Assembly: GCA_017618075.1 (NCBI GenBank)
Contig: JAFZUY010000001.1
Location: forward strand, 1-64,000
DNA: 64,000 bases
Direction: 5' to 3'
Source of the DNA: Lachnospiraceae bacterium
GTDB taxonomy: Bacteria; Bacillota; Clostridia; Lachnospirales; Lachnospiraceae
Part shown: positions 1,695 through 26,206 of the stretch, piece by piece
How the letters are laid out: each line of letters begins with the position of its first letter
Numbering within the stretch: the stretch's first letter is position 1
Translations under genes and position numbers: made by a program
Notes under the pieces: model-generated
What the model saw: the letters and a program-made list of their open reading frames with translations, nothing else
Told to the model about the DNA's origin: nothing
The model's database searches: none

Positions 1695-4271
1695 TCAGCA
1701 GATATCTTCTTTAAGTACGTCAACGATTGTTTCGTTGTGCATCTTTCCTGTCGATAAAAGCATGCTGATTCCGACGATTGCAAATACTCCTAAGGATACG
1801 AGAATGTATGTTAAGAAGTTAATCTCGAATGCGGAATTCGGAGAAGGTACGTTTTTATAGATAAAGAAACTTATAAATGCCGAAATCGGAAGGCCGAATA
1901 AAAGCGCTCTTAATCCGTAGAGGAAGGTCTCGAGGAAAAGCATTTTCTTAAAGCAGAATCTTGTCATTCCGACCGACTTGAACATCGCAAATTCTTTTCT
2001 TCTTAAATGAACGCCCGTCGTGATTGTGTTCACGATATTTGCAATTACGATAAGCGAAATCAGAGCGATAAATCCGTACATAACGGTCTTTATCAGTGTC
2101 AGAAGGGTCTTCATTATTATAAGACTGTCTTCCACATCCGAAGCAAATGCGTTGGTATAGCCGTCGTAAGTTAAAATATCCGCTATTTTTGCATGCACTT
2201 CTTCATGGTTTTTACACTGAATTCCGTATGTGCAGGTAAGATCTTCTATATCAACACATTTAACATATTCGCGGTCCATGACTGATGAAGGAACGTAAAC
2301 CGAGATGCTTCCTTTGGGTGAAAGTCTGTATTCTTCGATATTTTTATCCCACTTTACAAAATCCGTGATAGTGACTGCCGGAGGATTGCCTTCGGCTTTA
2401 TCATAAAAGAGTTTCTGGCCGAGGATCTTGTCGTTAAATACATCTTTTCTGGAGGGCTTATGAGAGTAATTGTTTAACAAAACTCCGCGAAGCTCGTCAC
2501 CGAAATATTTTGAATAGTCGATGTTGTTTTTCTCGCAGATCTTTATAAAATCCGCATCCTCTACCGGAATAACCCAGATATCGTATGTTGAGTCAAAAAG
2601 ATAATCGTAATCTCTGGTAAGAAATTCCGGGTTTCTTATTGCGGTATTGGGTATCTCACGATCTTTTCCCTCGTCATCCTTCGGATAGTAATTAAAGGAA
2701 ATCATTTCTGCGACAAATACTTTTTCCACGCCGTCGATTTTTGAAATATCCTCTTTTAATCTTTCACGTTCGGATAAAGAAGCTGAAGCGAAAACCTGGA
2801 AAGGAATTTCAATCTCATAACTGTTTTCTTTGTTGTAAAGCTCCACCAGATACATGACGGATAATAATAAAACAATCGAAACAGCCATCGAAACGGTTAT
2901 TACAAAACCTTTTGCGCCGTTTCTTTTTATATTCTTTGAAGCAAGTTCGCCCTCGTATCCGAAGAATAATTTAACAAAAGGAAGAACTTTCAGTTTCCAC
3001 GCGCGAAGCTTGATGGTATTGCTCTGTCTGATGGCTTCGATTGCCGTAATGCGGCTGGCCCTTAAGGCAGGGATAAAGGATGAAATAAATATGGTCAGCG
3101 CGGAGAAGAATATTATGGCAAGTACGATGACGGGATGTGTTTTAACAGGTATATATCCCATCTCGGTCGTTTTAATTCCGTAAAGCATTCTGGAATTAAG
3201 GATAAGAGATCCCGTAAAACGAAGCGTAGCCATACAGCCGAGGATTCCGATTATGTAGCCGAGAGGAATGCCTACGATTCCAAGCAGCAAACCTTCATAA
3301 TATACGCTTGCTTTCTTCTGTCTTCTGGTCGCACCCACACTTGAGAGCATTCCGAGGTATTTCATTCTCTCTGTAAGTGACATTGCAAAAGCGTTATAAA
3401 TCATAATCGAAGAAGCTATGATAACTATTACAAGCGCGGTTGCGATAAGCTTATATATTGAGTTTACAGGGTTGGATGGAATATCTTTTACGAACAAACT
3501 CATCAGATATTCCGTATTTATTTCATGTAAATTAAGATTATGGGTAGCAGCTATGCCCCTTAAGGTTTTTATAGCATTTCTGTCGATTTTTTTAAGAGTA
3601 ATAAAAACCATGTTTTTCTCGGGGAAGCGTTCCATTCCGCGAAGCATATCATAGGCTTTGGTAGGTTCGTTATTATGAAGAATCGCTGTAATAGTGCAGG
3701 TTTCGTCGCTAAGCGAGACGAAATCTTCTGAAGATTTGTAGTTGCCTGCAATATAGATAAGTTCCTCTGCTTCATAGACATAACGGTATCCCTGATGAAA
3801 AGAAAATGTGTCACCGATGTGAAGATCGAGATTATTGTCTTTTAAATATTCTTCCTCAATAGCAATTTCATTTGCGTTTTCAGGAAGTCTTCCTTCATAT
3901 TCGCAGGTTACTTTCTGGGAAAGCATATCGGGATTTCCGTGGAAAACGTTTCCCAGTCTGAATCTTTTTTCCGTATCACCGTCTATATAAAAGCCTGTTT
4001 TTTCGTTGTCGGTATCTGTTACTCCGACATATTTAAGCAGCGAATCGTTTTTTAAACTGTTGTATTCTTCCTCGGTTAAATTTTTAAAATCCGCATGCTG
4101 GTTTCCGTCAACATATACTGAAACATCACCCACGAACATAAATGCCGAATAAATACCGGTTAACATTGCGGTAATAAGAGCGGTTGATGCAACGATTCCG
4201 AATATTGTTACAATGGTTCTTTTAAGATTGGATTTTAAATGCTGCAAGGTCAATTTCATTATAATATTCAT
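1695..4271 (-). CDS. ABC transporter permease with two FtsX domains
   Basis: This 858-residue membrane protein starts with a transmembrane helix (about 18-46) and a large extracellular region. An FtsX block follows at about 275-420 (ALVIVIIASSIMIYNAF, then LGMLSSVGATRRQ). A second helix, a second extracellular region and a second FtsX block at about 730-850 (LIVIANIVNTITTG, FAMFKSVGMTR) complete it. The duplicated layout is that of MacB/LolC/YknZ-like permeases, which move lipids or peptides by mechanotransmission rather than ordinary channel transport. The ATG overlaps the stop of the ATPase gene by one base (TAATG), implying translational coupling. The substrate is unknown; antimicrobial peptide defence or lipoprotein handling are possible. 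Confidence 0.88.
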   Translation of the reverse strand: MNIIMKLTLQHLKSNLKRTIVTIFGIVASTALITAMLTGIYSAFMFVGDVSVYVDGNQHADFKNLTEEEYNSLKNDSLLKYVGVTDTDNEKTGFYIDGDTEKRFRLGNVFHGNPDMLSQKVTCEYEGRLPENANEIAIEEEYLKDNNLDLHIGDTFSFHQGYRYVYEAEELIYIAGNYKSSEDFVSLSDETCTITAILHNNEPTKAYDMLRGMERFPEKNMVFITLKKIDRNAIKTLRGIAATHNLNLHEINTEYLMSLFVKDIPSNPVNSIYKLIATALVIVIIASSIMIYNAFAMSLTERMKYLGMLSSVGATRRQKKASVYYEGLLLGIVGIPLGYIIGILGCMATLRFTGSLILNSRMLYGIKTTEMGYIPVKTHPVIVLAIIFFSALTIFISSFIPALRASRITAIEAIRQSNTIKLRAWKLKVLPFVKLFFGYEGELASKNIKRNGAKGFVITVSMAVSIVLLLSVMYLVELYNKENSYEIEIPFQVFASASLSERERLKEDISKIDGVEKVFVAEMISFNYYPKDDEGKDREIPNTAIRNPEFLTRDYDYLFDSTYDIWVIPVEDADFIKICEKNNIDYSKYFGDELRGVLLNNYSHKPSRKDVFNDKILGQKLFYDKAEGNPPAVTITDFVKWDKNIEEYRLSPKGSISVYVPSSVMDREYVKCVDIEDLTCTYGIQCKNHEEVHAKIADILTYDGYTNAFASDVEDSLIIMKTLLTLIKTVMYGFIALISLIVIANIVNTITTGVHLRRKEFAMFKSVGMTRFCFKKMLFLETFLYGLRALLFGLPISAFISFFIYKNVPSPNSAFEINFLTYILVSLGVFAIVGISMLLSTGKMHNETIVDVLKEDIC

Positions 4272-20865: not shown

Positions 20866-20893
20866 TTGACAAAAGAAATCTGATTGATATACT
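20866..20893 (+). promoter_or_regulatory. promoter of the ABC exporter/DUF1854 operon
   Basis: A consensus -35 TTGACA (20866-20871), a 16-bp spacer and -10 TATACT (20888-20893) predict a start near 20900. This leaves a leader of about 240 nt before the first exporter gene. Confidence 0.75.
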
Positions 20894-20940
20894 GAATTAA
20901 CGGATTAAAAAAAAAGGCAAGGAAAGGAGGACGAAAAAAA

Positions 20941-21060
20941 ATGAAGAAATTATACTCAGAAATTATTACAAGAACTATTGCGACCGTGCATGTATTTGCG
21001 TACGGCTTTGGAATATCTCGCACTGATTTTGCTTTTCGTACTCCCGGTATTGAAATATAA
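20941..21060 (+). CDS. leader peptide of the ABC exporter operon (39 aa)
   Basis: A very strong ribosome site (AAAGGAGG) precedes an ATG at 20941. The 39-codon frame starts MKKLYSEIITRTIA and ends FRTPGIEI. It is not hydrophobic and has no domain. It ends 24 bases before an intrinsic terminator that itself precedes the exporter gene. Short frames of this kind control drug-exporter operons by ribosome-dependent transcription attenuation, as bmrB does for bmrCD in Bacillus subtilis. The regulatory role here is inferred from layout. Confidence 0.6.
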   Translation: MKKLYSEIITRTIATVHVFAYGFGISRTDFAFRTPGIEI

Positions 21061-21084
21061 AAAGGATTACGATTTGATACTTGT

Positions 21085-21119
21085 GAAGTCACTGTGCGAA
21101 ACGGTGACTTCTTTTTTTT
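21085..21119 (+). terminator. attenuator: intrinsic terminator between leader peptide and exporter gene
   Basis: GAAGTCAC (21085-21092) pairs perfectly with GTGACTTC (21104-21111), followed by eight T. The loop holds GTGCGA (21094-21099), which is complementary to TCGCAC (21018-21023) inside the leader frame. That gives a possible competing pairing. Confidence 0.8.
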
Positions 21120-21138
21120 ACAACTTGAGGAAAACGAC

Positions 21139-23475
21139 ATGAAAGACAACAAACTAACCAAAAACATCTTAAACAAAATAAAAGAATATAAAATACACGA
21201 ATCAGACATACTGTCTGTTTGTCCTATAGATTTATCTTTTGAGGGTGAATATATTTTAGGATATATTTTTTTGACAAAGGATTATCTCGGTGTCTGCACA
21301 AGCGACATTCCTAGCGGATATACTCATTTCTTCAGAGGAACCAAGGTTCATAAAAAAGACGAGGATGAGGATCTTGCGGAATATGAAGTTAAGCTTTTTG
21401 ATTTAAAAAAGATTGAGCATATTCATGTTGAGAGAATGATAGGCGCGGTTCTTTTATCAGCCGAATATGACGGTGCTCCGATTAAAATCGCATCGCTTAC
21501 CAACACCTATCTTGAGCAGTTAAATCTCTTTGTCAGACATACCAAAAACATCAAAAACGGCAAAGATTTTGATGCGGATATCGTCGGAAAAGAAGTTGAA
21601 GAAGAGGATGAGGAACTGCTTTACTGTCCGATATGCGGGACTATGTACCCCGACCCTGCGAAGAAAGTTTGTCCGAAATGTACCAACAAAAGAACAATAT
21701 TTGCAAGGGTGCTTAAGTATTTTTTCAAATACAAATTCTCGATTGCGATTCTGTTTTTATCATATGCACTCGGCGCTGCAATAAGCGTTGTATGGCCGTA
21801 TTTAACAGGTAAAGTACTCTTTGACCATGTGCTGGAAAAAGACAGTGAATACTTAGCAAGATTCGGACTGGCAGGAAAATTTATGCTCGCACTTGCGATT
21901 CTTGCACTGATTATGATCGGAAGCAGAATTATAGAAGAGATTACCAACACTGTTCAGATGGCACTTATGGCGCGCGTTGCGACATCGACCGTAAATGATA
22001 TCAAAACAGATGTGTTCTCTGCAATGAGCAGACTCTCGCTCAACTTTTTTACGAGCAAGCAGACAGGCGGGCTCATGACACGAGTTTTAAGCGATTCGAA
22101 CAGGGTTACCGAATTTTTCATAGACGGCATACCTTCGATATTTATTCACGGAATGACCATCATAATAACATTTGTTGTTATGTACAGACTCAACTGGCAG
22201 ATGGCGCTCATCGCATGCATTCTTTTACCGTTGCTCGTGTTTATGACGGTTAAGCTGCGTCCCGGTCTCTGGAACCTTTCAGGCAAGAGACACCGCGCTG
22301 AAAAAGCGGTTTCGTCAAAGGCAAATGACAACTTAACAGGTGCGAGAGTAGTAAAGGCTTTCGGTCAGGAAGAAGCCGAAATAGAAAGATTTACGAATCC
22401 AAATAACAACCTAAAAGAAGCAGAGATAAACATAGTTAAACTAAGAAACAAGTTTACTATTCTTTACAGTCTGGTACAGGAAATATCGAGTATATGGATT
22501 TGGATTATCGGCGTATTCTTCGTACTTAAAACCGACAAAATCGACCTCGGTGTACTTCTTACTTTCGTAGGCTATGTGGCACATTTAAACGGTCCGATGA
22601 ACTTCTTTTCAAGAGTGTTCAGAATGTGGTCGGAGAGTATCAATGCCGCACAGAGACTCTTTGAAATCATCGATTCGATACCCGAAATCGTTGAAAAAGA
22701 AAATCCCATACATCTTATGAAGCCAAGGGGAGAAATCGAACTTTCGAATGTAACATTCGGATATACGGTCAGCAGAAATGTCTTAAAAAATATAAATCTT
22801 AAAGTCAAAGAAGGCGAAGTTTTAGGAATCGTCGGCCGTTCGGGTGCGGGCAAATCAACGCTTGTAAACCTTATTTCAAGACTCTACGACGTAAAAGAGG
22901 GCTCGATAAAAATAGACGGAGTCGACGTAAAAGATTTGTCGCTTTCGGACTTAAGAAAAAATGTAGCTATGGTTTCGCAGGATACATATATCTTCATGGG
23001 TTCGGTTGCCAAAAATATTGCTTACGGCAATGAAAATGCCACGGGCGATGAGATTATAAGGGCAGCAAAACTTGCGGGCGCACATGATTTTATATCGAAA
23101 ATGCCCGACGGATATGACACTGTAATCGGCGCTTCCGGAAAGGACTTATCCGGCGGTGAGAAACAGCGAATATCCATTGCAAGAGCAATACTTGCAGACC
23201 CGAAGATCCTTATACTTGATGAAGCTACGGCGAGCGTGGATACAGAGACGGAGAAAGCAATTCAGAATTCACTGAAGCTCCTGGTAAAGGGAAGGACGAC
23301 CCTTTCCATAGCGCACAGGCTTTCGACGCTTCGTGATGCAGACAGACTCATTGTTATAGACAACGGCCGCATCGTTGAGGAAGGAACGCATGCCGAGCTT
23401 GACCAAAATGAGGAAGGCTTCTTCCACAAGCTGAATGAACTGCAGAACAAATCGCTGGCAGTAACCAACTTTTAA
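21139..23475 (+). CDS. ABC exporter half-transporter with N-terminal zinc-ribbon extension
   Basis: The 778-residue protein starts with a soluble domain of about 160 residues. A four-cysteine zinc ribbon follows (CPICG and CPKC, about 165-185), then a six-helix exporter domain (about 200-490). The nucleotide-binding domain is complete (Walker A GRSGAGKST, LSGGEKQR, ILDEATASVD, AHRLS). The catalytic Glu is present. GAGG before ATG 21139 fixes the start; the upstream GTG at 21094 lies inside the terminator loop. The fold is that of multidrug or peptide exporters, with an unusual cytosolic extension. The partner is probably the 721-residue exporter two genes downstream. Confidence 0.9.
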   Translation: MKDNKLTKNILNKIKEYKIHESDILSVCPIDLSFEGEYILGYIFLTKDYLGVCTSDIPSGYTHFFRGTKVHKKDEDEDLAEYEVKLFDLKKIEHIHVERMIGAVLLSAEYDGAPIKIASLTNTYLEQLNLFVRHTKNIKNGKDFDADIVGKEVEEEDEELLYCPICGTMYPDPAKKVCPKCTNKRTIFARVLKYFFKYKFSIAILFLSYALGAAISVVWPYLTGKVLFDHVLEKDSEYLARFGLAGKFMLALAILALIMIGSRIIEEITNTVQMALMARVATSTVNDIKTDVFSAMSRLSLNFFTSKQTGGLMTRVLSDSNRVTEFFIDGIPSIFIHGMTIIITFVVMYRLNWQMALIACILLPLLVFMTVKLRPGLWNLSGKRHRAEKAVSSKANDNLTGARVVKAFGQEEAEIERFTNPNNNLKEAEINIVKLRNKFTILYSLVQEISSIWIWIIGVFFVLKTDKIDLGVLLTFVGYVAHLNGPMNFFSRVFRMWSESINAAQRLFEIIDSIPEIVEKENPIHLMKPRGEIELSNVTFGYTVSRNVLKNINLKVKEGEVLGIVGRSGAGKSTLVNLISRLYDVKEGSIKIDGVDVKDLSLSDLRKNVAMVSQDTYIFMGSVAKNIAYGNENATGDEIIRAAKLAGAHDFISKMPDGYDTVIGASGKDLSGGEKQRISIARAILADPKILILDEATASVDTETEKAIQNSLKLLVKGRTTLSIAHRLSTLRDADRLIVIDNGRIVEEGTHAELDQNEEGFFHKLNELQNKSLAVTNF

Positions 23476-23488
23476 AAAGGAGATAAAA

Positions 23489-24019
23489 ATGGCAGAAATT
23501 AATACTTACGAAAAAGAAGCCGAAGAAATGACGAGAATGACTGTCATTACCGATAAAGACAAGTTCGAACGTACAAACGGCGGCTTTGTTAATTTAACCA
23601 AAGACGGCATATTGTTTGAGAGGGTAAAAGTCGTGAGACTCTTCCCTTTCACCGATGCCGACAAATACATATCCATCAGGGAAAACTCGGCCAAAGCCAA
23701 GGAAATAGGCATTATCGAGGACCTTGGTGCACTTGATGAAAACACACAGGAGATCTTAAGAGAACAGTTAAGATTAAATTATTTTACTCCTGTAATAGAA
23801 AAGATTTACAACATTAAGGACGAGTACGGTTATGCATATTTTCATGTATTAACCGACAAGGGCGAGTGCAAATTTGCGATCAACATGGCATCCAATGCGG
23901 TTACCAAACTTTCCGATTCGAGGCTTATCATCATGGATCTGGATGAGAACAGATTCGAAATCCGTGATGTAAACGCACTCACTCAGAAAGAGAGACGAAA
24001 ACTCGATTTGTTCTTATAA
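23489..24019 (+). CDS. DUF1854-family protein encoded between two ABC exporters
   Basis: The 176-residue soluble protein has the look of DUF1854: a FPFTDADKYISIRE segment, an EDLGALDE element, REQLRLNYFTPVIEKI, then a strand-rich half (YAYFHVLTDKGECKF) ending in DVNALTQKERRKLDLFL. From memory, DUF1854 genes often sit beside ABC exporters, including ones tied to cyanophycin metabolism in proteobacteria. AAGGAG precedes the ATG. The gaps of 13 and 21 bases to the two exporter genes show one operon. An accessory or cargo-linked role is inferred. Confidence 0.75.
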   Translation: MAEINTYEKEAEEMTRMTVITDKDKFERTNGGFVNLTKDGILFERVKVVRLFPFTDADKYISIRENSAKAKEIGIIEDLGALDENTQEILREQLRLNYFTPVIEKIYNIKDEYGYAYFHVLTDKGECKFAINMASNAVTKLSDSRLIIMDLDENRFEIRDVNALTQKERRKLDLFL

Positions 24020-24040: not shown

Positions 24041-26206
24041 ATGATTTTAAAATACGACATATCGCCAAAGATTTTGGAGAAGATTCCACTGTCGAATGAC
24101 GAAAGGCTATACTATGCGATACCTTACGACATCGACGGGGACGGTGCGTGGATAAAAGGAGCATATCTTTTAGTCACTACCAAAAATATCCATATATTCG
24201 ACGGCGAGATCATAAAAGAAACAATTGAAATAAAAGACTTAAGCCATGCAAAAGCCGAAGCAAAGGTCGGCGGCGGAATCCTTGTTGTCACAAAAGACGG
24301 CGAAGACAAAGTGCTGGTGCACTATTCCGCCAGGCATTTAAGCCGATATGCTTATATCGCCAGAGGAATCAATATTTTGATCTCGGGACGTTTCGAGGAA
24401 GCTGAAAGTAACGAGTACGAGAAAATGTGTCCCAAATGTGGCAGAGCGATTCCGGGCACCAAATACTGTCCCAAATGTTCCAAAGAGGGCGGTTTCCTAA
24501 AAGAGTTTATCGGTCTTGCAAAGCCTTACAAAAAGGACTTTTTCGGCGTATTTGTACTGATGGTTCTGGTTGCGATTACAACTCTTTTAAATCCTGAAAT
24601 ACAAAAGCATTTGATAAACGATGTGCTAAAAGGAAACGGCGGTTTTAAAAAGGCCATGGTATTCCTTGCAATCATGTTTTCACTGAGTGTGGCAATCGTT
24701 ATAATTAACTATTTAAAGAGCAATGCTTCCACCAAACTCGGTGCGAAGATATCCGCGGATCTTAGAATGAAGCTCTTTAAAAAGTATCAGGCGCTTCCGC
24801 TCAGCTTTATAAACGACAGGCGTCCCGGCGAACTTTTAAACAGAATCACTCAGGATACCACAGCTATCAGAGAATTTTTGGAAGATGTATTCTGTAACCT
24901 TTTCGCAGTGCTTTTTATCTTTATATGGGACATCATTTTTATGATGGTACTTAACTTTAAGCTTGCGATTTTAACCTTTATAACGGTTCCGCTTGTAGTA
25001 GTGTTAATCGTTGCATTCAGAAAAGCGGTTTACAGGATTTTCCATCTGCAGTTTCGTAAAAACGATGATGTTTCAAGCGACCTTCAGGACGTAATTTCTG
25101 GAATGCGTGTAGTTAAAACCTACGGCAGAGAAGAGGAAGAAGCAAACCGCTTCAAGAGACTATCCGGAGAATTTGCAAGAACTCAGAGAAGAAACGAAAC
25201 TTTCTGGGCTATCTTTTATCCGATGATCTCATTCCTCATGGGAATGGGCGCGGTAATAGTAGTTTATTTCGGCGGTCTGGATGTTTTTGCAGGCAAAATG
25301 TCAGCCGGAGAGCTGTATCAGTTTATCGCATATACCACTCTTTTATTCCAGTACATCAACTGGATGAGCTGGCTTCCGAGAGAACTGACGGTCTTAACTT
25401 CAAGCATTGAAAGAATCAACGATATTCTTAATCAGGAAATTGAAGAAAAAGATCCCGACACAATGAAGGATATAGAGATAGAGGGTGAAATTACCTTCAA
25501 TCACGCAACCTTCGGATACAAATCGTACGAGCCCGTGCTTGAGAACATTAACGTGGTTGTAAACAAAGGTGAAATGATCGGCATCGTCGGCGCATCGGGT
25601 ACAGGCAAATCAACACTTATTAACCTTCTGATGGGTCTCTACCAGGTCGATGACGGACGGCTTCTTATAGACAATACTGACATAAAAGACATCAACTCGA
25701 AGTCGTTTCACTCACAGCTTGGAGTAGTGCTTCAGGAAACATTCCTTTTCTCGGGAACAATACTAGATAACATCAGATTTTCGAAACCCGATGCGACATA
25801 CGAAGAGATCGTAAAAGCAGCCAAAACGGCGAATGCACATGATTTTATATGTAATACTCCCGACGGCTACAATACATATGTCGGCGAGAAAGGCTATACC
25901 TTATCCGGCGGCGAGAGACAGCGAATCGCTATCGCAAGAGCAATTCTTACCAACCCAAGGCTCTTAATACTTGACGAAGCGACCGCAAGTCTTGATACCG
26001 AAAACGAATTCATGATTCAAAAGGCGCTCGAGAGATTAACCGAAGGCAAGACAACATTTGCGATTGCTCACAGATTATCAACTCTTCGAAAAGCCGACAG
26101 AATCATGGTTATCGACGGTCACAATATCGCCGAAATCGGCACACACGAAGAACTTCTCGCAAAGAAGGGAATGTACTACAACCTGTATAAAGCACAGATT
26201 GGATAA
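24041..26206 (+). CDS. ABC exporter half-transporter with zinc-ribbon extension, second subunit
   Basis: The 721-residue protein repeats the plan of the first exporter: a soluble N-terminal domain (about 1-125), a zinc ribbon (CPKCG and CPKC, about 129-147), a six-helix domain (about 165-450) and a complete ATPase domain (GASGTGKST, LSGGERQR, LILDEATASLD, AHRLS). The two proteins are related but clearly different, as expected for a heterodimer. Unlike many heterodimeric exporters, neither copy has lost the catalytic Glu, so two homodimers remain possible. It ends at a bidirectional terminator. Confidence 0.9.
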   Translation: MILKYDISPKILEKIPLSNDERLYYAIPYDIDGDGAWIKGAYLLVTTKNIHIFDGEIIKETIEIKDLSHAKAEAKVGGGILVVTKDGEDKVLVHYSARHLSRYAYIARGINILISGRFEEAESNEYEKMCPKCGRAIPGTKYCPKCSKEGGFLKEFIGLAKPYKKDFFGVFVLMVLVAITTLLNPEIQKHLINDVLKGNGGFKKAMVFLAIMFSLSVAIVIINYLKSNASTKLGAKISADLRMKLFKKYQALPLSFINDRRPGELLNRITQDTTAIREFLEDVFCNLFAVLFIFIWDIIFMMVLNFKLAILTFITVPLVVVLIVAFRKAVYRIFHLQFRKNDDVSSDLQDVISGMRVVKTYGREEEEANRFKRLSGEFARTQRRNETFWAIFYPMISFLMGMGAVIVVYFGGLDVFAGKMSAGELYQFIAYTTLLFQYINWMSWLPRELTVLTSSIERINDILNQEIEEKDPDTMKDIEIEGEITFNHATFGYKSYEPVLENINVVVNKGEMIGIVGASGTGKSTLINLLMGLYQVDDGRLLIDNTDIKDINSKSFHSQLGVVLQETFLFSGTILDNIRFSKPDATYEEIVKAAKTANAHDFICNTPDGYNTYVGEKGYTLSGGERQRIAIARAILTNPRLLILDEATASLDTENEFMIQKALERLTEGKTTFAIAHRLSTLRKADRIMVIDGHNIAEIGTHEELLAKKGMYYNLYKAQIG

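Follow-up and report, generated by a model that had tools for sequence, protein, structure and literature searches.

A short leader frame and an intrinsic terminator stand ahead of an ATP-binding cassette (ABC) exporter operon in the window analyzed here, a stretch of 64,000 nucleotides (nt) from a Lachnospiraceae bacterium (contig JAFZUY010000001.1, positions 1 to 64,000). Sequence comparison and structural modeling indicate, with a probability of roughly 0.78, that these elements form a ribosome-mediated transcription attenuator that controls the exporter operon and works like bmrB of Bacillus subtilis. Attenuation of the operon through leader translation had been claimed in an initial annotation of this DNA, and it is well supported by comparative evidence comprising the layout of the locus, its conservation, tests of leader-terminator pairing, a ribosome occupancy model and an enrichment of threonine (Thr) in the leader. 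In rumen and gut Lachnospiraceae, the exporter genes would very probably be read only when ribosomes slow or stall, and we infer that termination and readthrough both occur, that translation pushes the switch in the direction described below, and that the three genes form one transcript. If this is correct, gut and rumen Lachnospiraceae would possess a further family of attenuators, one in which a pump is switched on by slowed translation.

All elements lie on the forward strand, and the promoter, strong ribosome site, 39-codon frame, hairpin with eight T and exporter ATG were each found where the initial annotation had placed them. The sigma-70-type promoter (20866-20893; TTGACA-N16-TATACT with an extended -10 TG) matches 11 of 12 consensus positions, and transcription is predicted to start near 20900. 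The Shine-Dalgarno sequence AGGAGG (20925-20930) has the ATG of the leader frame (20941) 10 nt downstream, and the 39 codons that follow (20941-21060) encode the peptide MKKLYSEIITRTIATVHVFAYGFGISRTDFAFRTPGIEI. The terminator (21085-21119) begins 24 nt past the leader stop codon and consists of a stem (21085-21111) with 8 perfect pairs, GAAGTCAC/GTGACTTC (11 pairs with one G-U included), followed by T8 (21112-21119); the exporter ATG at 21139 lies 20 nt beyond the last T. A short frame of the translated type with its own ribosome site is therefore present ahead of a terminator, as in an attenuator, and its predicted translation is backed by the in-frame Thr enrichment. Between 20000 and 22000, promoter-like sites were not above chance (6 versus 5.5 expected, standard deviation (s.d.) 2.6), and terminator-like sites were (5 versus 1.8 expected, s.d. 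1.2). What raises the predicted switch above chance is comparison, namely relatives with the same layout and a leader-terminator pairing that is specific when the leaders are taken as a set.

Folding of 21012-21100 places an antiterminator arm inside the leader frame (21018-21032, codons 26-31), where it would form a 15-base-pair (bp) helix with 21083-21091 and 21094-21099. The opposing 3' arm (21083-21099, with 21092-21093 bulged) is made up of the terminator 5' arm and part of the terminator loop, and as sequence and predicted structure the two folds are mutually exclusive. The pairing of TCGCAC (21018-21023) with GTGCGA (21094-21099) that had been pointed out previously is correct and represents the outer 6 bp of this longer helix. 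Nested within the antiterminator is an 8-bp hairpin around the leader stop codon, here named P2 (21036-21072, formed by 21036-21044 and 21064-21072). The combined fold of antiterminator and P2 reached -22.7 kcal/mol (z-score -3.31), and none of 200 shuffles was as good.

Leader-terminator pairing was compared between own and permuted partners among leaders from related exporter loci (designated L), which are partly related, so that pairing and hairpin probabilities are nominal. For 15 leaders the own-pair sum was -232.1 against -166.4 (s.d. 11.3) for permuted partners, and for 17 lineage representatives it was -264.5 against -192.9 (s.d. 12.1), with 0 of 100,000 permutations in both cases. Left out of these tests were L102 and L151, which pair poorly (p 0.651 and 0.804), the duplicates L131 and L133, the second candidates from L079, L081 and L082, and nearly identical members of the clade; the inclusion of L125 and L076 was made with knowledge of their pairing. 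A set chosen blind to pairing, which leaves out L125 and L076 and keeps L102 and L151, gave 0 of 100,000 permutations (17 leaders), or 1 of 100,000 without the latter two (15 leaders). The terminator's best partner was its own leader in only 7 of 17 cases in the first set and 5 of 17 in the blind set, and the pairing signal is therefore collective; related leaders cross-pair. Taken as a set, the predicted alternative pairing is maintained across lineages. The inner stretch of the antiterminator also folds as a hairpin in 16 of 17 leaders (the exception being L093; in L081 the hairpin precedes the stop codon), with a combined Fisher p of 7e-5, individual values of p <= 0.05 in 4 of 17 and p 0.239 for the window leader alone.

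Within the window's clade, the predicted switch region is conserved at the nucleotide level, mainly in its putative pairing elements. The ribosome site, the 3' half of the leader and the terminator align across nine clade sequences, with AGGAGG invariant in all nine; the promoter is present in eight, and the ninth (L032) has no DNA there. Indels among the clade leaders fall in the variable N-terminal part and are multiples of 3. All 18 bases of codons 29-34 are invariant in the nine leaders, wobble positions included, whereas in the 778-codon ABC gene from the same nine genomes at most 3 consecutive codons stay unchanged, and 135 of its 778 third positions do not vary. Most of the conserved leader bases fall in the antiterminator arm, P2 and a further hairpin, P0, with the first codons, a linker (21033-21035) and the last codon plus stop as exceptions. 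One compensating change was found in the antiterminator, where L100 has T-A for the C-G of the other eight and Arg27 is also changed to Cys. The terminator of L031 differs from that of the window, yet its loop still forms 13 pairs with a leader arm that has not changed. Hairpin P0 (20984-21005, CCGTG/TACGG, 5 pairs) folds with a probability of ~0.99; three of its pairs are invariant in the nine sequences and the two varying pairs are unpaired in one and two of the nine. It could possibly serve as an RNA polymerase pause hairpin. As a separate observation, comparison of L031:2761-3001 with window positions 20930-21139 revealed a first exporter protein 97% identical and a leader peptide identical to residue 36, together with a terminator and following stretch of different sequence and length.

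Translation of the leader, and selection for Thr among its early residues, are very likely because Thr is enriched in frame ahead of the arm. The proposed sensing zone of the window leader covers codons 2 to 25 (20944-21015, with Thr at codons 10, 12 and 15); it shows scant sequence conservation except in P0. Residues were counted from codon 2 to the last codon before the antiterminator arm in 17 leaders, 320 codons in all, with the N-termini of 369 genes as control. Thr occurred 48 times against 16.3 expected and histidine (His) 15 times against 3.8 (0 of 5000 resamples for each); isoleucine, asparagine and tyrosine were also raised, glutamate (4 versus 30.3), leucine (16 versus 33.7) and glycine (3 versus 13.4) were depleted, and alanine and serine were not enriched. 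By codon phase (0/1/2), ACN was found 48/16/5 times in the zone, compared to 0.053/0.056/0.044 per codon in the controls. Each of the 17 leaders carries Thr in the zone, 15 of them two or more times, and its positions differ from leader to leader. Compared with shuffles that preserve the dinucleotides of 20 leaders, Thr remained in excess (59 versus 30.3, s.d. 4.3, 0 of 500); His was not above the shuffles (23 versus 18.2, s.d. 3.7, 57 of 500), and its excess may therefore reflect composition. Frequencies of Thr and His were 0.147 and 0.058 in the 20 leaders, 0.083 and 0.027 in 15 other short frames led by a Shine-Dalgarno sequence in the loci, which served as a control, and 0.055 and 0.013 in gene N-termini.

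The effect of a translating ribosome was modeled by masking its footprint codon by codon and folding the RNA up to 21102 or 21105, a thermodynamic treatment that ignores queued ribosomes and polymerase pausing. With the RNA ending at 21102 and the ribosome at codons 1-21, the antiterminator had a probability of 0.72-0.99, which fell to at most 0.05 at codons 22-33. At codons 34-36 only the outer half of the antiterminator formed (0.91-0.93 at 21102 for codons 34-35), and at codons 37-40 the probability was 0.51-0.98. According to this model, an early-held ribosome exposes the arm and a ribosome passing codons 22-33 hides it. In the proposed mechanism, a ribosome moving at normal speed on a transcript begun near 20900 would cover codons 22-33, and with them the arm and P2, while polymerase makes 21083-21105; the antiterminator would then be blocked, the terminator hairpin would form and the RNA would end near 21119. 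If the ribosome were held earlier in the leader, or not loaded, 21018-21032 would pair with the terminator 5' arm in a structure closed by P2, and polymerase would continue into the exporter operon.

A protein search yielded 80 exporter loci that, together with the window, gave 81 loci for comparison; in L038, L097 and L101 the available upstream DNA is too short for a judgment. The initial annotation had looked to relatives that keep the exporter for conservation of the leader frame, and here the outcome was mixed, as a leader with ribosome site and terminator was recognized at 23 of 81 loci (22 after omitting L102, plus L076) and not at the rest. Among 29 further loci of the family (L131-L159), two have a leader and both were already counted (L131 = L081, L133 = L079), and among 16 loci of a related genus (L162-L177) four have one, including two not counted before (L170, L171). 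When presence of the leader is mapped onto a tree of 79 exporters, 7 changes are needed versus 20.1 for shuffled labels (as few in 0 of 500 shuffles), and leaders are present on either side of the drawn root. Their sequences vary between groups, an example being the arm TATCAGAAG and terminator CTTCTGATA in L066 and L109. A search model built with the antiterminator structure (R1) was run on 397 family genomes and 31 genus genomes. Five of the family genomes matched at E <= 0.05; the matches in the window and in G323 (the L081 locus) are real, and those in G062, G068 and G200 were rejected, as the surrounding sequence lacks the leader layout by eye. Fourteen of the genus genomes had a match at E <= 1, including 11 matches at E <= 5e-9 in 10 genomes; ten of these 11 lie ahead of an exporter, and in G024:C164 the contig ends at the apparent exporter start. 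Five genus matches were weaker; G021 (L125) is a leader and G015 (L126) is not, the others being in G019, G025:C144 and G030.

Several results weigh against an attenuator that acts in this way. No leader was recognized at 58 of the 81 exporter loci, at 26 of the 29 further family loci (one more, L151, is a candidate without pairing) or at 12 of the 16 loci of the one related genus. Taken singly, the leader-terminator duplexes of L035, L046 (p 0.213), L093, L094 (p 0.279), L100 and L110 have p > 0.05, and the candidates L102 and L151 are virtually without pairing. The covariation pair count on a first alignment of 11 rows, in which most rows are nearly identical and L037 and L046 are misaligned, gave no significant signal, its score being reached in 58 of 500 shuffles. 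When the longer stretch 20985-21100 was folded, the z-score was only -1.39, with 12 of 200 shuffles as good. In the occupancy model, moving the RNA end to 21105 lowered the antiterminator probability for codons 1-21 to 0.26-0.99, and without a ribosome it was 0.27-0.60. Placing the ribosome at codons 39-40 does little to block the arm (0.67-0.83 at 21102), and timing or blockage of P2 must therefore matter. In folds of the growing transcript the antiterminator reached 0.43, 0.60 and 0.27 at RNA ends 21099, 21102 and 21105, and the terminator reached at least 0.99 from end 21108 onward. Because the terminator of the full-length RNA wins completely at equilibrium, antitermination would have to be a kinetic choice.

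Other explanations draw on parts of the same evidence. The leader could be an amino-acid-starvation attenuator that reads Thr codons, and less securely His codons, in its first half, as the excess of Thr at unshared positions of the zone would suggest. In classical his and thr leaders the regulatory codon is repeated in runs. Such runs are absent here, an exporter operon belongs to neither a Thr nor a His pathway, isoleucine, asparagine and tyrosine are raised and glutamate, leucine and glycine lowered along with the Thr excess, and His does not exceed the shuffles, which together make starvation control unlikely. A constitutive terminator, with an incidental leader encoding a stand-alone small protein or giving a short RNA and with the pairing unused, would fit the thermodynamic dominance of the terminator and the many relatives in which no leader was recognized. 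It would not account for specific pairing that the lineages, taken as a set, have kept or for nucleotide conservation concentrated in the pairing elements, and is considered highly improbable. Control by a riboswitch, T-box or protein-bound antiterminator in place of the ribosome would share the terminator/antiterminator layout and could appeal to a sub-threshold match to a PyrR site (15.7 bits versus a gathering score of 54, E 8.4). No Rfam family reached its gathering score in the window, where the two sub-threshold matches had E 8 and 8.4, which counts against a riboswitch or T-box, and both the in-frame Thr enrichment and the frame-preserving indels point to translation, leaving this the most improbable of the alternatives.

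Arrest by the nascent peptide was the first idea considered. In this explanation the peptide itself is the sensor, and the RAP-like leader end FR-T-P-G stalls the ribosome when Pro35 occupies the P site and Gly36 the A site, in the manner of ApcA, ApdA, ApdP and SecM. Consistent with it, all ten window-type leaders encode R-[T/A/S]-P in frame, L076 outside this group has R-P-P, and the modeled ribosome at codons 34-35 still permits the outer half of the antiterminator. The leaders resemble the RAP(P/G) arrest peptides ApcA (RAPG), ApdA and ApdP (RAPP) and SecM in having R-x-P near the end and a variable N-terminal part, as portrayed in PMC12992588 and PMC10951233; according to the former, RAP(G/P) is an established arrest core at which ribosomes stop with its third codon in the P site and its fourth in the A site. 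Unlike in those peptides, the second place is occupied here by Thr, which in PMC12992588 is not among the permissive substitutions for ApcA, ApdA and ApdP, and R-x-P is absent from 9 of 10 leaders that are not of the window type. Neither R-A/G-P-P nor R-A-P-G was found, the window having R-T-P-G and related leaders R-A-P-Y, R-S-P-E and R-P-P-V. FRTPG arrest was downgraded as the main mechanism because its codons belong to P2 and almost none of their wobble positions vary, and because relatives keep the nucleotides near the leader end while the frame shifts, as seen by eye in L066 and L069 compared to L079 and L109, and in L082 compared to L076. Constraint on the RNA explains the C-terminal FRTPG at least as well as RAP-type arrest, which is judged quite unlikely.

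For the ribosome-mediated attenuator, the Thr enrichment fits either a drug or amino-acid starvation as inducer, and the natural signal would probably be a translation inhibitor rather than an amino-acid shortage. A more specific version, which we regard as possible and rather doubtful, posits for Lachnospiraceae a family of two-zone attenuators whose early codons, kept rich in Thr (less securely in His) at drifting positions, would stall ribosomes on one specific insult, and the ABC-DUF1854-ABC pump would export that compound. Such an insult might be a peptidyl-transferase inhibitor specific for nascent-chain context or a compound that inhibits the charging of tRNA with Thr. According to PMC8987054, stalling by chloramphenicol and linezolid is strongest with alanine as the penultimate residue and weaker with serine or Thr. 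Because alanine and serine are not enriched here, the two-zone version would call for an inhibitor with a different, Thr-centered preference. The Thr bias is nevertheless the best lead to the signal and, via the signal, to the substrate of the exporter.

The kind of control proposed is known, and the leader would belong to this general kind and probably works like bmrB, without being a member of the bmrB family. The comparison with bmrB made in the initial annotation was right in kind, as both have a leader frame (very likely translated in the present case) and alternative structures ahead of an ABC exporter pair, with leader translation proposed here to decide between terminator and antiterminator. 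For bmrB of bmrCD, PMC4191407 places terminator structures inside the coding segment (nt 60-162) and predicts an anti-anti-terminator. In contrast, the terminator here begins outside the leader coding region, a hairpin surrounds the stop codon and the operon has the order ABC-DUF1854-ABC; no anti-anti-terminator stands out in the folds, in which no systematic search for one was made. PMC4335068 and PMC6851288 concern other attenuated resistance genes. The ABC-leaders of a premature-terminator analysis (PMC2965389), described ahead of, for example, a multidrug export operon in lactobacilli, are likewise predicted attenuators of ABC transporter operons in Firmicutes; its main text holds no word beginning with 'Lachno', and overlap with its supplementary lists is possible. 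The leader family and operon were not found described in the literature searched, which covered open-license papers only and is weak evidence of absence.

The genes under the proposed control are an ABC exporter half-transporter with ABC_membrane and ABC_tran domains (21139-23475, 778 aa), a DUF1854 protein (23489-24019, 176 aa) and a second ABC half-transporter (24041-26206, 721 aa), presumed to form one operon. By exporter protein, the closest named relatives are Lachnospiraceae bacterium G41 and the metagenome genome RUG11047, both at 97%. Cultured relatives with the leader include G41 (locus L031) and Eubacterium uniforme ATCC 35992 (locus L081). Both ABC genes best match the NCBIfam family CphA_assoc_ABC (545 and 507 versus a cut-off of 880), and the sole match of the middle gene is CphA_assoc_prot (DUF1854; 87 versus 150). 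As these scores are below the cut-offs, the cyanophycin name should not be transferred. Likeness to exporters of the P-glycoprotein/Sav1866 type lies in the solved relatives of both ABC proteins, which include ABCB1, TM_0288 and Sav1866. A literature search on DUF1854 with ABC transporters returned no paper.

An overlapping 54-codon frame (20978-21142, TTG start), which covers part of the leader and the exporter start, was rejected, as it is open to its end only in the window and L034, has stops in the other seven of nine clade sequences, and has no ribosome site noted. The Shine-Dalgarno-like string occurs at three places in the window's own genome, and the other two are without a leader-like frame by eye. 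At a contig end in G021:C35, L125:1439-1594 carries a leader of the window type that contains R-S-P (MKYLIHIVTTDLYTSVKNRFMLIRCAQSMRSPEKYI) and is followed by a terminator with which it pairs, the downstream gene lying beyond the contig end; the exporter of the same genome carries a different leader (L099/L013). Two differing leader copies, L129 (G024:C164) and L120 (G024:C151), occur in one assembly, both near contig ends, and possibly reflect a strain mixture. In L075 the terminator and the exporter start are separated by some 250 bases (2752-3000) in which GC-rich motifs, recognized by eye, recur in repeated and inverted form.

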